A stretch of DNA of 64,000 bases, from positions 3,999,507 through 4,063,506 of the forward strand of contig NZ_HG315671.1 in NCBI RefSeq assembly GCF_000723205.1, read 5' to 3'. Positions 47,089 through 63,411 of this stretch are shown here, in pieces. Every line of letters begins with the position of its first letter. The stretch's first letter is position 1. Under the pieces are notes generated by a model, which was given only the letters and a program-made list of their open reading frames with translations, was not told the origin of the DNA and searched no databases. The stretch is from Formosa agariphila KMM 3901 (GTDB taxonomy: Bacteria > Bacteroidota > Bacteroidia > Flavobacteriales > Flavobacteriaceae). Made by a program: the position numbers and the translations under genes.

Positions 47089-47114
47089 CAGTGTTAATCG
47101 TTAAGAACAACATC

Positions 47115-47723
47115 ATGAATAAAATTATAACACTTAGTATTTGCCTATTAGTAATTACATCTAGTTTCGCATCTAATTTTTCTGACCTTACTTTTTCTAA
47201 AGACGGTGATAAATCTAAAATGGAAATTACGCTAACATTAAAAGATGTAAAAGCTGGGCAAAAATTATCTATAAAAGACGAAAAAGGAGTTTTCTTATTT
47301 AACAAAACAATTATAGAATCTGGTGTATTTTATAACAGATTCGACTTATCGGCTTTACCAAATGGAACATACCATTTCGAACACGAAAAAGAACATTACG
47401 TTAAGCATATTCCTTTTACTGTATTTAATGGTGAAGTGGATTTTGATAGTGCAAAGGCAACTGTTGTTTACAAGCCAAGTTTACGTGTAAAAAACAATAT
47501 TTTATACTTATCTAAATTAGATTTAAACAAAGACGTTGTAGGTGTAGAAATTTATTACACTCCTACTACCGATAAAAATTACAGATTATTACACTCAGAA
47601 GACATTAAGGATACAGTAAAAATTGAACGTACTTACCGTTTATCTGGACAACATAAAGGAAATTACAAAGTTGTAGTCAACGCCAACAATGGTGAGACTT
47701 ACGTAGAGTATTTTAAAATATAG
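47115..47723 (+). CDS. Secreted two-sandwich protein, paralog 1
   Basis: A 202-residue exported protein of a three-member local family. The start at 47115 is chosen because an upstream in-frame GTG (47091) lies 3 bases past the -7 box and would be at or before the transcript start. The signal peptide is about 1-19 (ending FAS). The mature part seems to hold two beta-sandwich units. The first has LSIKDEKGVFLFNKTI and FDLSALPNGTYHFEHEKE; the second ends GNYKVVVNANNGETYVEYFK. Both resemble the folds of type IX secretion sorting domains, but no genuine cargo precedes them. Function unknown. A terminator follows. Confidence 0.8.
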   Translation: MNKIITLSICLLVITSSFASNFSDLTFSKDGDKSKMEITLTLKDVKAGQKLSIKDEKGVFLFNKTIIESGVFYNRFDLSALPNGTYHFEHEKEHYVKHIPFTVFNGEVDFDSAKATVVYKPSLRVKNNILYLSKLDLNKDVVGVEIYYTPTTDKNYRLLHSEDIKDTVKIERTYRLSGQHKGNYKVVVNANNGETYVEYFKI

Positions 47724-52574: not shown

Positions 52575-52674
52575 AATTACCCCTACAATCTATTTAATGC
52601 GAATCTGCTGGTAAAATAGTATATAAACTAGCCAAAATCGATGTTTTAGAACGTCTTATAACTACCTATCTTTG
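52575..52674 (+). promoter_or_regulatory. Conserved promoter module, paralog copy 2
   Basis: Same order and spacing as copy 1: AATTACCCC, then GGTAAAATA, GCCAAAATCGATGTTTT, 19 bases, and TATCTTTG at 52667-52674. The leader carries GTTAATCG. Confidence 0.65.
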
Positions 52675-52704
52675 AATATGTTAATCGATAAAATAAATGA
52701 AATT

Positions 52705-53298
52705 ATGAAAAAAGTAATGACACTTAGTATGTGCTTACTAGTAACGCTTACTAGTTTAGCATCAGGTTTAGAACACAACATGTCATCAAATTTTGATGAT
52801 AAGGAAATTACATTAACATTAAACAATGTAAAAGAAGGACAGAATTTATCTATTAAAGATAATTATGGTTTTGTACTATATAAGAAGGTATTTGAAAAAT
52901 CTGGAAATGCAAATCAAAAGTTCGACTTATCGGCTTTACCAAACGGAACATATTATTTCGAGCATGAAAAAGATTACGAAATTAAAGTTATACCGTTTCA
53001 TGTAAAATCTGGTGAGGTAACTTACGACACTGTAAACGAAAAAATTATTCACAAGCCTGTAGTACGTTTAACAGACAACAAAGTTTACTTATCTAAATTA
53101 GAATTAGATAAAGAAGATGTAGCCGTTTCATTATACTATGCAGACGATTATAATGAGTTTAAAGTTGTGCATACTGAAAATTTTGAAGACACTGCTAATA
53201 TTCAAAGAGTATATAGTTTATCTAAAAAGAATTCAGGAAATTATAAAATGATTATCAATGCAAACGGAAGAGAATATATCGAATACTTTAGCATGTAA
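52705..53298 (+). CDS. Secreted two-sandwich protein, paralog 2
   Basis: A 197-residue exported protein, homologous to those at 47115 and 53778. An in-frame TTG (52672) lies inside the -7 box and an ATG (52678) lies 3 bases past it, so the ATG at 52705 is preferred; it gives a normal signal peptide (1-19, MKKVMTLSMCLLVTLTSLAS). Shared segments include ITLTLNNVKEGQNLSIKD, FDLSALPNGTYYFEHEKD and VYLSKLELDKEDV, ending GNYKMIINANGREYIEYFSM. No cysteine-rich or enzymatic motif. Function unknown. It has its own promoter module and terminator. Confidence 0.8.
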   Translation: MKKVMTLSMCLLVTLTSLASGLEHNMSSNFDDKEITLTLNNVKEGQNLSIKDNYGFVLYKKVFEKSGNANQKFDLSALPNGTYYFEHEKDYEIKVIPFHVKSGEVTYDTVNEKIIHKPVVRLTDNKVYLSKLELDKEDVAVSLYYADDYNEFKVVHTENFEDTANIQRVYSLSKKNSGNYKMIINANGREYIEYFSM

Positions 53299-53777: not shown

Positions 53778-54386
53778 ATGAAAAAAGTAATCACACACAG
53801 TATTTGCATGTTAGTCATGATTACTAACATCGCAACAAGTTTCGCTAGTAACCTTTCTATTTTAAATGAAGAAAGAGATCGCATGGAAATTACGTTAACT
53901 CTAGATTATGTAAAAGCAGGACAGCAATTATCTATAAAAGATATAAACGGATTAGTACTTTATAATAAAATCATTGAAAAAGAAGGCATTTTCAGTAACA
54001 GGTTTGACTTAACAGCTTTGCCGAATGGAAGGTATTTTTTCGAACATGAAAAAGATTATCAAATTAAAATTATACCGTTCGATGTCTCGTCTAACAAAGT
54101 AACATTCGATACAACATGTGAACAAGTTATCTTTAAACCGGTATTACATGTTAAAGACAATTTATTATACGTTTCTAAATTAGATTTAAATCGAGAAGAT
54201 ATAAACATCGCTATTTTTCATGATGGTAACTCTAACAGTGGTGACTACAATTTAGTACACGCCGAAAATTTTACAAATACCATGAAATTAGAGCGTATTT
54301 ATAGCCTAACTAACACTAGAAAAGGAAACTACAAAGTTGTTGTTAATGCAAACAACAGAGAATACATCGAATATTTTTCAATCTAA
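53778..54386 (+). CDS. Secreted two-sandwich protein, paralog 3
   Basis: A 202-residue exported protein, third copy of the family. The signal peptide covers about 1-24 (MKKVITHSICMLVMITNIAT start, ending FAS). Shared blocks are MEITLTLDYVKAGQQLSIKD, FDLTALPNGRYFFEHEKD and LYVSKLDLNREDI, ending GNYKVVVNANNREYIEYFSI. Middle residues differ most between copies, suggesting divergence of a binding face. Own promoter module and terminator; function unknown. Confidence 0.8.
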   Translation: MKKVITHSICMLVMITNIATSFASNLSILNEERDRMEITLTLDYVKAGQQLSIKDINGLVLYNKIIEKEGIFSNRFDLTALPNGRYFFEHEKDYQIKIIPFDVSSNKVTFDTTCEQVIFKPVLHVKDNLLYVSKLDLNREDINIAIFHDGNSNSGDYNLVHAENFTNTMKLERIYSLTNTRKGNYKVVVNANNREYIEYFSI

Positions 54387-58661: not shown

Positions 58662-59678
58662 TTATTTAGCCCAATTGTTTATCCATTTCCCTAACAACGC
58701 AGACCAAGAATCGTCATCGTTTAAACAAGGTACTGTGGTAAATTCTTTTCCGCCTACTTCATGAAAAAGTTCTTGACCTTCCATTGCAATTTCTTCTAAT
58801 GTCTCCAAACAATCGCTAACAAAAGCAGGTGTTATTATTGCCATATTTTTAACTCCAGCTAATCCCAATCTTTCAATGGTTCTATCTGTATACGGTTGTA
58901 ACCACGGATCAAACCCTAATCTAGATTGAAACGAGGTTGAAAATGCTCCTTCTTCTAAACCAAGTTTTTCTGCAACCAATCGCGTAACCTCTAAACATTG
59001 GTGTTTATAACAAAATTCGTGTGCTTTAGACGGGGTTACACAACAAGACCCATCTATTTTACAATGCGATTTTGTAACGTCACTTTTTCTAATGTGTCGC
59101 TCTGGAATACCATGATAAGAAAACAATATATGATCGTATGTTTTTCCACCAAGATGACGCTTTACAGAGTCACTTAACACTTCAATATAATCTGGTTTAT
59201 TATAGAAAGCAGGTAAATGATCTATTTTAACATTCGGAAAATGTTCTTGGCGTAGCTCTTCAGTTAAAACTAAAATAGTTTCTGTAGTTGCCATAGCAAA
59301 TTGAGGGTACAATGGAATTAAGAAAACCTCATCTACACCTTGATCTACCAACTCCTGAATTCCCTTTTTAATGGTCATAGAACCATAACGCATAGCTAAT
59401 GCTACAGGATAATCTACTTCCTTTTGCACTTTAGCTTTAAGGCGTTCCGAAATCACTATTAATGGAGACCCTTCGTCCCACCATATTTTTTTATATGCAG
59501 CAGCAGAAGCTTTTGGTCGTGTTTTTAAAATTATACCTTTTACTAGTGCTGTTCTAGCTATTAGAGGAATATCTATAACACGTTCGTCCATTAGAAACTC
59601 TCCTAAATATTTTTTTACATCCTGCGGACTAGGACTCTCTGGAGAGCCTAAGTTAACAAGTAAAACTCCTTTTTTCAT
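58662..59678 (-). CDS. hemH: Ferrochelatase
   Basis: A 338-residue ferrochelatase inserting Fe2+ into protoporphyrin IX, the last step of heme synthesis. The start at 59678 gives MKKGVLLVNLGSPESP, the family N-terminus; an ATG five codons upstream would precede the likely -7 box. The active-site His is in LFSYHGIPERH and the C-terminal acidic site in ITPAFVSDCLETLEEI. A Cys-rich segment (CKIDGSCC ... CYKHQC) is typical of Bacteroidota forms. It heads a leftward run with MATE and hemJ-like genes. Confidence 0.95.
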   Translation of the reverse strand: MKKGVLLVNLGSPESPSPQDVKKYLGEFLMDERVIDIPLIARTALVKGIILKTRPKASAAAYKKIWWDEGSPLIVISERLKAKVQKEVDYPVALAMRYGSMTIKKGIQELVDQGVDEVFLIPLYPQFAMATTETILVLTEELRQEHFPNVKIDHLPAFYNKPDYIEVLSDSVKRHLGGKTYDHILFSYHGIPERHIRKSDVTKSHCKIDGSCCVTPSKAHEFCYKHQCLEVTRLVAEKLGLEEGAFSTSFQSRLGFDPWLQPYTDRTIERLGLAGVKNMAIITPAFVSDCLETLEEIAMEGQELFHEVGGKEFTTVPCLNDDDSWSALLGKWINNWAK

Positions 59679-59682
59679 TTTA

Positions 59683-59690
59683 CAAAAGTA
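59683..59690 (-). promoter_or_regulatory. Possible -7 box of hemH, nearly leaderless
   Basis: Reads TACTTTTG on the minus strand, matching TAnnTTTG, only 4 bases before the hemH ATG. If used, the message would be close to leaderless. Confidence 0.3.
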
Positions 59691-59786
59691 CAATAGAAAT
59701 TACGATCCTACCACATTCTAATCATAGTATTATCTTATCAACTATTCAATCAAATTGATTATTAGGACTCTTGTATATCAAAAAAA

Positions 59787-59948
59787 TTACATACTCTTAA
59801 TTCTATTTTTTTCTTGCTGATGATGTATCGAACGGTCTTCATTAGCATTACAATCTTGAAAAATGCCACAAGATTTACCTAATCGTACTAACGATTTAGT
59901 ATTCGAATCTTTCGACCAAGCTTCTATTTCTGGAGATAAATATGTCAT
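59787..59948 (-). CDS. Small 53-residue protein, tandem copy B
   Basis: A 53-codon gene beginning ATG and ending TAA. The protein starts MTYLSPEIEAWSKDSNTKS and continues with LVRLGKSCGIFQDCNANE, then a His/Gln/Lys-rich tail. It shares 32 of the first 37 residues with copy A 205 bases upstream, while the tails differ. Many codons of identical residues differ at the third base (GCT/GCA, AAT/AAC, CAA/CAG), which indicates selection on protein sequence. Two Cys are six apart (CGIFQDC). No signal peptide or membrane helix. I know no family. Role unknown; could be a metal- or redox-active regulator or a peptide precursor. Confidence 0.75.
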   Translation of the reverse strand: MTYLSPEIEAWSKDSNTKSLVRLGKSCGIFQDCNANEDRSIHHQQEKNRIKSM

Positions 59949-60153
59949 AACAATCAACTTTTTTACATCTGTAAAACTAAAGGAAGAAGTTTATTACAGC
60001 GTTAAGACGATGTTACATACGGAATAAGAAATGATAGGACAACACGTTTAAAATTCTTAATAAGATAACATGCACCACATGATACATTATAATCTTATAA
60101 CTCTGAATTAAAAATTAGATGATTGAAAAATTACACTTCGTAATTTAATACCC

Positions 60154-60315
60154 TTATTGTTTTTTAGATGAAGATTCTTTTTGCTGTTTCTTAACGGGAA
60201 TAACTTCGTTTGCATTACAATCCTGAAAAATGCCACAAGACACTCCGGGTCTTACTAACGATTTTGATTCAGATTGTTTCGACCAAGCTTCTATTTCTGG
60301 AGATAAATATGTCAT
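60154..60315 (-). CDS. Small 53-residue protein, tandem copy A
   Basis: A 53-codon gene, also ATG to TAA. It reads MTYLSPEIEAWSKQSESKS, then LVRPGVSCGIFQDCNANE, then a Lys/Gln/Ser-rich tail (VIPVKKQQKESSSKKQ). It lies 39 bases after the ThuA gene on the same strand, so it may be co-transcribed with the AraC-ThuA pair. TATATTTA at 60337-60344 could be its own -7 box. Same length as copy B despite a different tail. Function unknown. Confidence 0.75.
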   Translation of the reverse strand: MTYLSPEIEAWSKQSESKSLVRPGVSCGIFQDCNANEVIPVKKQQKESSSKKQ

Positions 60316-60336
60316 ACTAAAAGATTTAAGACATCT

Positions 60337-60344
60337 TAAATATA
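60337..60344 (-). promoter_or_regulatory. Possible -7 box of small gene copy A
   Basis: Reads TATATTTA on the minus strand, one base off TAnnTTTG, 21 bases before the ATG. Confidence 0.28.
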
Positions 60345-60354
60345 GTGAATAAAA

Positions 60355-61056
60355 TTAGTCTAAACAATACCGTATGCCTCCTAAAAGATGCATTCTAAAG
60401 TTTGGGTCTGAATAAGCCTCAATGGTATGACCGAGCCCCGTATAAAACGAACGTCCGCCATCAAATTCCTGACACCACGCTATAGGATGATAATCCCCAT
60501 TTTCTCCACCTGCATAAGAGGTTTCATCTAGCATAATAAGCGGATTTATAGCGTCGCTTATGTTTTTAAAATTATACCATTCATCAAAATGTTTCCAATT
60601 GGCATCTAAATGTTGTGTTGCTTCATGATTGGTGTTCACAATCTTTAAATTTGCCTGAGATTGCTCTGGATGACTAATAAAATATGCACCAACAAGCTTA
60701 CCATACCATGGCCAGTCGTACTCGGTATCTGTAGCAGAATGCACACCTAGAAAACTTCCTCCATTATTAATAAATGCTTTAAAAGCGTCTTGTTGTTTTT
60801 CATTTAAAACATTACCCGTAGTATTTAAAAAGATTACAAGTTTATATCTCAATAAATTTTCTGAGTTAAATACCTCTGAATTTTCTGTATGTGTAATCGC
60901 AAAACCATGTTCTGTACCCAATGCTGTTAATGTTTTTACACCAACTTCAATAGATTTATGCCTAAATCCTTCTGTTTTAGAGAACACCAACACTTGATCT
61001 ATATTCTGAGCAACAACAGAACCACAAGAAAACAGCAAAACGATTAATAATTTCAT
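60355..61056 (-). CDS. Exported ThuA-domain protein
   Basis: A 233-residue exported protein with a signal peptide (1-17, ending VVAQ) and a single ThuA (glutamine-amidotransferase-like) domain. Features include VLVFSKTEGFRHKSIEVG, a GGSFLGVHSATDTEYDWPWYG loop (read GVHSATDTEYDWPWYG) and GRSFYTGLGHTIEAY. ThuA domains occur in sugar-utilisation proteins, but the enzymatic role is poorly defined. It begins 2 bases after the AraC regulator gene, so the two are co-transcribed. The link to heme neighbours is unclear. Confidence 0.87.
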   Translation of the reverse strand: MKLLIVLLFSCGSVVAQNIDQVLVFSKTEGFRHKSIEVGVKTLTALGTEHGFAITHTENSEVFNSENLLRYKLVIFLNTTGNVLNEKQQDAFKAFINNGGSFLGVHSATDTEYDWPWYGKLVGAYFISHPEQSQANLKIVNTNHEATQHLDANWKHFDEWYNFKNISDAINPLIMLDETSYAGGENGDYHPIAWCQEFDGGRSFYTGLGHTIEAYSDPNFRMHLLGGIRYCLD

Positions 61057-61058
61057 AC

Positions 61059-61943
61059 CTAATTAATTGATTGTAAATATTTTTTTGGAGTAGTTCCGTA
61101 CTTCTTCTTAAAGGCAGCAATAAAGTGACTTGAAGTACTATAGCCCACTTTTAACCCCACTTCATTTACATTAAAACCTCCTGTTTCTAGCAGCTTTCTA
61201 GCTTCTTCCATTTTATAGTCGAATAAAAAACTAAAAACCGAATCTCCATAAATTTGTTTAAATCCTTCTTTAAGTTTCTTAAGACTTAAACCAATCTCGT
61301 CTGCCAATTCCTGTAAACTAGGCGGCTCTGCCATTCTAGAAATAATAATATCTTTTGCTTTTCTAATTTTAATCACATTGGTTTCGTCTACTAAAAACGG
61401 ACATTGTTCAACATTAGCATCTTCACTCCTATTAAAATACAAGCTCAACAACTCGAAAGTCTTTCCTTTAAAATAAAGATTTTTAATAGATTCGTTTAAA
61501 TTGTAATGCATGATTTGCGTTAAAACAATAGCCATAGACGGAGAAATTTTCCCGTCTTTATAATATTTCTTATCCTTATTATCATCGCTTAAAAACGTAA
61601 CATAATCGGCTTCCTGAGAAAACAAGCCATGAAACTCTTTAATAGAAATTAAAATAGTAACCAACCATGAGTTAGGATTAACCTCTAAATGAATTGGTAA
61701 ATCTTGCTGCGGATTATAAAGTAGCAATGAATTCTCTTCGTTAATATTTAACGTATAGCTTCCTTTATTGAATTTGAATGCTGAAGAACCTTTTAAACAA
61801 AAATGAAATTGAATAACACTACTGTCTATATGTTTCTCTACAACATCTACTCCAAGACCTTCATTTTGATAGGTTAAGACAGAAAAACCCTGATCTATAA
61901 TGGTTTCCTTAAATGTTCCTTCAGCGTTATTTTTTTGTTCCAT
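61059..61943 (-). CDS. AraC-family transcriptional regulator
   Basis: A 294-residue regulator. The start at 61943 (MEQKNNAEGTFKE) is preferred; an upstream ATG at 61979 lies inside the dyad operator. The N-terminal half is a sensor domain of unknown ligand (about 1-190). The C-terminal double helix-turn-helix covers about 205-294 (LQELADEIGLSLKKLKEGFK and VGYSTSSHFIAAFKKKYGTTP). The layout is like PchR-type iron/siderophore regulators. It is divergent from hemA and upstream of the ThuA gene. It is a plausible controller of the heme and iron genes here, by inference. Confidence 0.88.
   Translation of the reverse strand: MEQKNNAEGTFKETIIDQGFSVLTYQNEGLGVDVVEKHIDSSVIQFHFCLKGSSAFKFNKGSYTLNINEENSLLLYNPQQDLPIHLEVNPNSWLVTILISIKEFHGLFSQEADYVTFLSDDNKDKKYYKDGKISPSMAIVLTQIMHYNLNESIKNLYFKGKTFELLSLYFNRSEDANVEQCPFLVDETNVIKIRKAKDIIISRMAEPPSLQELADEIGLSLKKLKEGFKQIYGDSVFSFLFDYKMEEARKLLETGGFNVNEVGLKVGYSTSSHFIAAFKKKYGTTPKKYLQSIN
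61911..61936. repeat. 26-bp near-repeat, copy in the AraC 5' coding end
   Basis: 23 of 26 bases match 62078-62103 in the AraC-hemA intergenic region, including TTCAGCGTTA. This copy encodes the NNAEGTF residues of the AraC protein on the minus strand. Confidence 0.55.
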
Positions 61944-61965
61944 TTTTCTAAAATTTAAATCGCAT

Positions 61966-61988
61966 TTATTTAGATTCACTCTAAACTA
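61966..61988 (-). promoter_or_regulatory. Putative iron/heme operator dyad near the AraC gene
   Basis: Plus-strand arms TTATTTAGATT and ACTCTAAACTA around one base, 8 of 11 complementary. It resembles the dyads at both TonB receptors and lies 22 bases before the AraC start, on the hemA side. Confidence 0.45.
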
Positions 61989-62077
61989 ATTACAACAATA
62001 ACGTTGTAAGCCCCGTAAAAGTATAATATTTATTAGATTTGATTCGATAATTGAATTAAAAAACCCGAAACGACACT

Positions 62078-62103
62078 AAAAGTTCTTTCAGCGTTACTTT
62101 TTT
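62078..62103. repeat. 26-bp near-repeat, intergenic copy upstream of hemA
   Basis: Partner of 61911-61936 with three mismatches. On the minus strand it reads like a decayed AraC N-terminus (SNAERTF against NNAEGTF) but has no start and soon hits stops. Confidence 0.5.
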
Positions 62104-62117
62104 ACAATTAGGCACTA

Positions 62118-62125
62118 TACATTTG
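62118..62125 (+). promoter_or_regulatory. Probable -7 box of hemA
   Basis: TACATTTG matches TAnnTTTG, 26 bases before the hemA ATG. Confidence 0.45.
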
Positions 62126-62151
62126 TTCTGAATTTCCAACTAATATAATAA

Positions 62152-63411
62152 ATGAATCAAAATCACGGATCTAGAGGCACTTACTTTTACGCCATTGGAT
62201 TAAGTTATAAAAAAGCAGACGCTGAGATTAGAGGACATTTTAGTCTTGATGAAGAATCAAAACTAAATCTTTTAAACCAAGCGAAAGAAAATGGTATTGA
62301 TAGCTTGATTGTAACTTCTACTTGTAACAGAACCGAGATTTATGGTTTTGCAGAGCATCCATTTCAACTTATTAAATTATTGTGCGATAACACTAAAGGA
62401 ACTGTTGATGAATTTCAGCAAGTGGCCTATGTTTATAAAAGTAGCGAAGCAGTTTCTCATATGTTTCGCGTGGGTTCTGGATTGGATAGTCAGATTCTAG
62501 GAGATTTCGAAATTATCAGTCAGCTTAAAAAAAGTGCAAGAGTCTCTAAAAAATTAGGTTTGCTTAACACCTTTTTAGAGCGCCTAGTAAGTATGGTTAC
62601 TCAAGCGAGTAAACGTATTAAAACCGAAACCGAAATTTCTTCGGGTGCAACATCTGTATCTTTTGCATCTGTACATTATATATTAAATAACGTTCCTGAA
62701 GTTTCTAATAAAAATATTTTACTTTTTGGAACTGGAAAAATTGGTAGAAACACCTGCGAGAATTTAGTTAAACACACTAAAAATGAGCAAATCACTTTAA
62801 TTAACAGAACAAAAGATAAGGCAGAACGAATTGCTGGAAAATTTAATCTTTTAGTTAAAGATTACGCCAACTTACAAGAAGAAATAAATAATTCTGATGT
62901 TTTAGTCGTTGCTACCGGAGCCCAAAACCCAACGGTAGACAAGCATTTAATACAGACTAAAAAGCCTTTACTAATTTTAGACTTATCGATTCCGAAGAAC
63001 GTTCATGAAAATGTTACGGAATTAGAAGGTGTGTCTTTAATTCATCTAGACCACTTGTCTCAGATTACCGACGAAACTTTAGAAAAAAGAAAAACACATA
63101 TTCCTGTTGCCGAAACCATAATTGAAGACGTTAAAAAAGAATTTAACGATTGGTTAGAAACACGAAAGTTTGCCCCTACAATAAAAGCATTAAAGAATAA
63201 ATTATTAGACTTTAAATCGGCTGAACTAGATGTGCAACGTAAAAAAATATCTGATTTTAACGAAGCACAAGCTGAGCTGATAAGCAATAATATTATTCAG
63301 AAGATAACAAATCATTTTGCGCATCACTTAAAAGATGAAGATTTTTCGACTAACGAAAGTCTTGAACTTATAAAAAAAGTGTTTCAGCTAGAAACATCAT
63401 CAAATGCATAA
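62152..63411 (+). CDS. hemA: Glutamyl-tRNA reductase
   Basis: A 419-residue enzyme that reduces glutamyl-tRNA(Glu) to glutamate-1-semialdehyde, the first step of the C5 heme pathway. The catalytic Cys58 is in VTSTCNRTEIYG, the NADPH-binding part begins LLFGTGKIGRNTCENL, and a C-terminal dimerisation helix ends the chain. It overlaps hemC by 8 bases, so translation is coupled. The divergent AraC gene, dyad and -7 box upstream suggest regulated synthesis. Confidence 0.96.
   Translation: MNQNHGSRGTYFYAIGLSYKKADAEIRGHFSLDEESKLNLLNQAKENGIDSLIVTSTCNRTEIYGFAEHPFQLIKLLCDNTKGTVDEFQQVAYVYKSSEAVSHMFRVGSGLDSQILGDFEIISQLKKSARVSKKLGLLNTFLERLVSMVTQASKRIKTETEISSGATSVSFASVHYILNNVPEVSNKNILLFGTGKIGRNTCENLVKHTKNEQITLINRTKDKAERIAGKFNLLVKDYANLQEEINNSDVLVVATGAQNPTVDKHLIQTKKPLLILDLSIPKNVHENVTELEGVSLIHLDHLSQITDETLEKRKTHIPVAETIIEDVKKEFNDWLETRKFAPTIKALKNKLLDFKSAELDVQRKKISDFNEAQAELISNNIIQKITNHFAHHLKDEDFSTNESLELIKKVFQLETSSNA

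Follow-up and report, generated by a model that had tools for sequence, protein, structure and literature searches.

Cyanobacterial IF7 and CP12 are short, largely unfolded partners of enzymes or regulators, with chains of about 50–80 residues. For small proteins at large, the part of the description of the global smORF catalogue (GMSC) cited here states that the vast majority of conserved small-protein families have no Pfam domain (PMC11364881). We analysed a stretch of 64,000 nucleotides from Formosa agariphila KMM 3901, a member of the Flavobacteriaceae (contig NZ_HG315671.1, positions 3,999,507 to 4,063,506; hereafter the window), which carries a tandem pair of genes of an undescribed small-protein family that we label S. 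By description, S can be likened to IF7 and CP12: its chain is within the range of about 50–80 residues, it is predicted to have little fold alone and it carries short conserved linear motifs. With precursors of RiPPs and redox cofactors, such as the mycofactocin precursor MftA, it shares a short chain and a conserved Cys-Gly-hydrophobic-aromatic core; unlike MftA, its core is internal, no maturase is seen alongside and four maturase classes are rare or missing in the carrier genomes tested. S also resembles the AgrD cyclic-lactone peptides in having a Cys that is separated by four residues from a following acidic one, but its tail is not conserved, and AgrB was not found in any of 19 genomes by a search with a weak control. 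Lastly, S is like the GMSC families, as that part of the source describes them, in being shorter than 100 codons, conserved and without a Pfam domain (PMC11364881), and differs from them in general in that it was found in one bacterial family only and has a nearly frozen core. S is an undescribed example of a conserved small protein without annotation.

Both minus-strand reading frames of 53 codons named in the original prediction are present in the window, each giving 53 residues from an ATG, and the genes run from ferrochelatase through S, S and ThuA to AraC, as it had described (Table 1). Copy 2 has an alternative in-frame TTG start at 59957, from which a protein of 56 residues would be made; in the HemH frame, an in-frame ATG lies at 59678. 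The two copies are identical at 32 of 37 residues of their N-terminal end and, again as claimed, unlike in their tails (3 of 16 tail residues in common). The further claim that the identical residues often use different codons was overstated, since this holds for 6 of the 32; the selection at the protein level that went with it stands, with a dS of 0.53 and a dN of 0.11 over 37 codons, that is, a dN/dS of about 0.21. The pair are the only good matches in their genome (E 3.9e-31 and 4.7e-18), the third-best match (E 0.33) lying inside an open frame of 1049 residues. Among the Formosa loci seen, the tandem arrangement is unique to this genome, three others (L133–L135) having one copy at the same site, and the pair is a local duplication.

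Table 1. Features of the S locus, numbered from the first nucleotide of the window.
Feature	Coordinates	Strand	Evidence and remarks
S copy 1	60154..60315	-	53 aa from ATG; ORF, profile match 97.8 bits, E 1.4e-27, dN/dS
S copy 2	59787..59948	-	53 aa from ATG; ORF, profile match 95.1 bits, E 9.4e-27
Copy 1, N-terminal motif M-x-[YF]-L-x-[PK]-x-I-[EA]-A-L, residues 1-13	60277..60315	-	column counts, 149 sequences
Copy 1, core SL[VA][RK]x3SCGIFQ[DE], residues 19-32, near-invariant Cys27	60220..60261	-	column counts (149 sequences), alignment A2
Copy 2, N-terminal motif, residues 1-13	59910..59948	-	alignment A1
Copy 2, core block, residues 19-32	59853..59894	-	alignment A1
ThuA-domain protein, upstream of S	60355..61056	-	Pfam PF06283, E 7.3e-76
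AraC-family regulator	61059..61979	-	Pfam PF12833; same site occupied in genomes without S
Ferrochelatase HemH	58662..59693	-	Pfam PF00762, E 3.4e-98; listed ORF start is TTG

A search profile built from 28 relatives (alignment A1) was used to scan 397 genomes belonging to the same family. At E<=0.01 it matched in 94 of these genomes and at E<=8e-9 in 92, the two weakest matches (E 0.003 and 0.004) being counted as noise; 62 of the 237 sampled genera have a match, or 60 without these two, and so do 90 of the 330 genomes that are at least 90% complete. S is a single-copy gene in 88 of the 92 carriers, and the other four have tandem sets of 2, 2, 3 and 4 copies. In samples of the order (246 genomes) and of the phylum (296 genomes), each of which includes some genomes of the family, no match better than E 3.4e-4 was found outside the family, in agreement with the original prediction of a lineage-specific small protein family. 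A homologue search and a dN/dS estimate, as it had proposed, gave matches in 92 of 397 genomes of the family and a dN/dS of about 0.2. Inside the family, four genomes of the genus g127, in which S is otherwise absent, gave weak matches (E 0.0018–0.08). The best of these, around positions 1489-1563 of locus L065 in genome G510 (E 0.0018), has the letters SCGFFQD, lies in an open frame where our script found no ATG start, and is either a diverged relative or a chance match. A named collection contains 198 stretches that encode a relative; the best 80 of these, which were kept, come from Formosa, Algibacter, Tamlana, Mariniflexile, Polaribacter, Tenacibaculum, Hyunsoonleella, Flaviramulus, Yeosuana, Ochrovirga and others. 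Neither window copy matched Pfam or NCBIfam at E<=10. Four S proteins gave no match in PADLOC at E<=1, and in PHROGs one of the four gave two weak matches (E 0.056 and 0.15); the PDB returned four unrelated chains (E 0.74–0.98), and no S match was seen in viral contigs, plasmids or phages. The letters SCGIFQ occur in none of the papers searched, and there was nothing on family S among the matches listed for Flavobacteriaceae and small proteins.

We assessed conservation in 150 distinct S proteins, from which identical repeats had been removed, as had sequences whose match has no ATG close by (L065 and L210 among them). M1, L4, L20 and G28 are invariant in all 150, and I8, S19, S26, C27, I29, F30 and Q31 are each shared by 90% or more of them; these counts are independent of the G[IT]F anchor. 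Columns were counted in the 149 sequences that have this anchor, one tandem copy of L075 that has none being left out, and the counts of G28, I29 and F30 in this set therefore lean on the anchor. In the 149 sequences the pattern M-x-[YF]-L-x-[PK]-x-I-[EA]-A-L is joined through a linker of variable length to S-L-[VAI]-[RK]-x3-S-C-G-I-F-Q-[DE], with C27 and Q31 each in 147, S26 in 146 and D or E at position 32 in 142. The second Cys of CGIFQDC occurs in 100 of them; no set of metal ligands is conserved beside the single near-invariant cysteine. Judged by these alignments, the SCGIFQ core is nearly frozen. The tail is variable among relatives. Calculated on the two conserved blocks (27 codons), with the tail left out, the median dN/dS is 0.20 for the 2590 pairs of relatives with a dS of 0.05–1. 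By its conservation, S is a real, undescribed small-protein family of Flavobacteriaceae. Tandem sets of four, three and two S genes lie between Crp- and glyA-type genes in L073 (4883-5677), L074 (4839-5429) and L075 (5043-5456). In two tandem copies the Cys is replaced by Asn or Asp (SSNGIFK, TDGIFK) and in a third the whole core is gone; copies thus seem to drift once they are redundant.

The structure of S was modelled with AlphaFold2 from the 150-row alignment. The mean pLDDT was 68.8 and the pTM 0.25, with helices predicted at residues 6-14 and 42-51 and a mean pLDDT of 83 for residues 1-10. Hence no confident fold is predicted for S alone, bearing in mind that a poor model is no proof of disorder. 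The model suggests that the chain takes shape on a partner.

We then compared the genomic address of S between groups. Of the 92 carriers, counting the window, 49 have S in the heme locus, 35 in a GntR/molybdenum-cofactor (MoCo) locus, 3 in a Crp/glyA locus, 3 in a nudix-like locus and 2 in other places (the tally was summed from two locus sets, with four duplicate genomes removed and the window added). The best 80 of the 198 named loci comprise 54 heme, 22 TIGR00266-like/DUF4442-like, 1 nudix-like, 1 Crp/glyA and 2 other loci; the group of 22 is missing from the 92 sampled carriers, and the GntR/MoCo group from these 80. Among the neighbours, one representative each of AraC, ThuA, HemH, GntR, Crp and the sigma factor was compared with Pfam, and the other gene names are presumptive, being given by the look of the sequence. 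In the 54 heme loci among the best 80, S directly follows AraC in 41, with a gap of 9–81 nt in 38 of these, and stands behind ThuA in 13; the ThuA gene may be present or absent at the S site of relatives, on either side of S. A search of 30 genomes gave an AraC relative in 29, namely in 22 of the 23 that lack S and in all 7 that have it elsewhere. In the 22 AraC loci without S, AraC and hemH are adjacent in 11 (gaps of 15–232 nt), separated by ThuA in 2 and by about 560 nt in 1, and no hemH was seen within 1.5 kb of AraC in 8. Where S lies elsewhere, hemH comes directly after AraC in L312; the distance is about 530–540 nt for L313 and L314, and more than 1 kb for L297; it was not seen near AraC in the other three of these seven carriers. 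The AraC relatives of L312–L314 are only 38–44% identical to that of the window. A quick tree was made of 57 AraC proteins, from 28 chosen of the 54 named heme-locus loci, the window, 21 of the 22 loci in genomes without S and the 7 with S elsewhere. On this tree, presence of S at the heme site needs three changes, of which the starred branches force only one, and 21 of the 54 inner branches are unsupported; a single origin of S at the heme site is possible. In the hemA/AraC/hemH locus (58662-63411 in the window, and relatives), the AraC gene beside hemA is itself widely kept, and may encode a regulator of the heme pathway.

These observations bear on the proposal, made in the original prediction, that the family is metal- or heme-responsive. 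In the fuller form considered here, AraC and S would control or assist HemH and HemA, and the cysteines would bind heme, iron or an Fe-S cluster. The 49 carriers with S in the hemA/AraC/hemH locus, and the position of S directly after AraC or behind ThuA in the named heme loci, speak for it. However, S is elsewhere in 43 of the 92 carriers, the AraC relative and the AraC-hemH neighbourhood occur in genomes without S, and the second Cys is missing from about a third of the sequences. The linkage of S to heme genes being inconstant, we rejected heme or iron homeostasis as the main reading and consider it very unlikely. Since the address varies between groups, the place beside heme genes is probably no clue to function; with S found elsewhere and AraC-hemH found without S, the heme neighbourhood appears to be a place where S has landed and has then been inherited in one group. 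On these comparisons, we take S to be an independent gene and not a constant component of heme metabolism.

Promoter-like signals of its own precede S. The GntR/MoCo-type group was represented by 35 sequences, namely 34 distinct sequences from that locus and L107, which is of the same sequence type in another context. A bipartite element, AAC-N16-CGTT, stands before S in this group, for example in L101, L098 and L083. It precedes S in 19 of the 35 (shuffled sequences: mean 0.18, maximum 3), an exact match being absent in 16; with a spacer of 16–18 it is found in 20, and in 18 of these it ends 21–32 nt before the ATG, a steady distance. None of 21 sequences from the Polaribacter/Tenacibaculum group has the element, and CAAC-N14..18-CGTT occurs within 350 nt in none of the 115 other sequences, against 19 of the 35. 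Instead, 17 of the 21 Polaribacter/Tenacibaculum sequences have TAnnTTTG within 90 nt of the start (shuffled sequences: mean 1.8, maximum 6), which we take to be the Bacteroidota -7 element. The element of the GntR/MoCo-type group has the layout of ECF promoters: it fits the EcfG promoter, which the part of the published account cited here gives as GGAAC-N16-CGTT with an almost invariant AAC (PMC7083833).

A sigma-factor gene adjoins S divergently in nine loci (L076, L080, L082, L083, L089, L095, L104, L105 and L110), with a further gene behind it; Pfam regions 2 and 4 were tested for one of the sigma genes, and the product of the following gene has no Pfam match in L076. No motif of the AAC-N16-CGTT type was seen on the sigma side in the nine loci. 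CAACAW-N14-CGTT was counted throughout three genomes, which have 26, 32 and 30 sites against 31, 31 and 23 for the reversed pattern; there is no enrichment, therefore no regulon is seen, and an ECF regulon was rejected. We examined 40 of these 88 sites (26 of 26 in G227, 14 of 32 in G236 and 0 of 30 in G201). Four sites of G227 lie outside long ORFs: one is that of S, whose start is 30 nt on, another has an ORF of 77 residues 127 nt on and two have none. Of the five such sites in G236, three are followed by ORFs of 187–223 residues 33–62 nt on, and two are not; the three could be real targets. No target set common to the genomes was found among the 40 stretches. ECF control of S itself is likely in the GntR/MoCo-type group, where an ECF sigma factor, read from the promoter-like motif that was found, would probably switch S on. 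With such control, S would be a stress- or envelope-response effector in that group.

The strongest rival to an independent gene for an adaptor or regulator, developed below, is a precursor of a modified peptide, either a redox cofactor or a signal, and we grant it a modest chance. A maturase encoded at a distance would read the N-terminal YxxPxI and modify the Cys-Gly-Ile-Phe-Gln core, the tail being a follower. The two-block layout, with YxxPxI at the N-terminus and a nearly frozen core, would suit this, as would the tandem copies with diverging cores in three other genomes and the absence of a confident fold in the model; S is here presumed comparable to leader motifs and to precursors with a conserved core such as that of mycofactocin. 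The original prediction had spoken of a precursor with a conserved leader and a variable tail. The tail does vary, but conservation in the middle block equals or exceeds that of the N-terminal stretch, and candidate maturases are rare in the carriers tested: MNIO (PF05114) was found in 1 of 35 carriers and in 2 of 34 genomes without S, PqqD/RRE (PF05402) in 1 of 15 carriers, YcaO (PF02624) in 0 of 15 and SPASM (PF13186) in 2 of 15. AgrB (PF04647) was not found in any of 19 genomes, a set that included 15 carriers; the control was weak and matched in 1 of 14 genomes, below the cut-off. Nor, by look, does a maturase-like gene recur beside S. The RiPP routes tested and an AgrD-like lactone were rejected, the five protein classes occurring in at most 2 of the 15–35 carriers searched per class, and the modified-peptide reading is weakened by the rarity of these classes, although a maturase of another class may act on S. 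There is a small chance that S forms the scaffold for a peptide system of a new kind, present across one bacterial family, in which the SCGIFQD core would become a conserved thiol-bearing cofactor or signal independently of the maturases tested, and an enzyme or receptor would read the nearly frozen core through the N-terminal helix.

A self-acting or competition peptide, such as a small bacteriocin, a toxin or a part of a toxin-antitoxin pair, might be expected to be small, to form tandem duplicates with diverging tails and to change its genome address, as S does. Yet, by look, no antitoxin gene, immunity gene or transporter recurs beside S, the PADLOC, PHROGs and mobile-element searches gave at most the two weak matches reported above, and a single copy in 88 of 92 carriers with a nearly frozen core is unlike an arms race; we hold such a role to be improbable. 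That the frames are chance products of a recent DNA duplication, or mark a structured RNA, has next to no likelihood. The window pair is indeed a local duplication where related loci have one copy, but the constraint across 150 distinct sequences acts at the protein level, and no Rfam match was found at E<=1 in 59600-60500 of the window; conservation and dN/dS refute chance ORFs.

The reading that we prefer, and to which we give a little less than an even chance, is that S acts independently as a small adaptor or regulator, docking on a conserved partner by way of SL[VA][RK]x3SCGIFQ[DE] and its cysteine. Docking is proposed because S is conserved without a confident fold. Binding to a conserved cellular partner encoded elsewhere would involve both the N-terminal helix ([YF]LxPxIExL) and SL[VA][RK]x3SCGIFQ[DE], the single near-invariant cysteine would act as a reactive or contact residue, and the tail would be free to vary. 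This reading has as its basis the observed conservation, purifying selection and varying location of S, from which we infer translation and all function; no partner was found in our searches. A protein of about 50 residues that is present in 92 of 397 sampled genomes of one family, has no Pfam or NCBIfam model and has a core conserved to a degree comparable with an active site probably touches something important, and the bacteria that carry it matter for algal carbon recycling. S is of more than usual interest because a frozen core is combined with a varying address. As the address varies while the sequence stays, guesses from neighbouring genes, the heme guess included, would mislead. The frozen core and the single near-invariant cysteine make S a clean target for pull-down and mutation.

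Elsewhere in the window, three proteins of about 205 residues that look related by eye are encoded on the plus strand over 7 kb (47091-47723, 52672-53298 and 53778-54386). By eye, too, they have signal-peptide-like starts and a common LSALPNGTYYFEHEKDY-like stretch.
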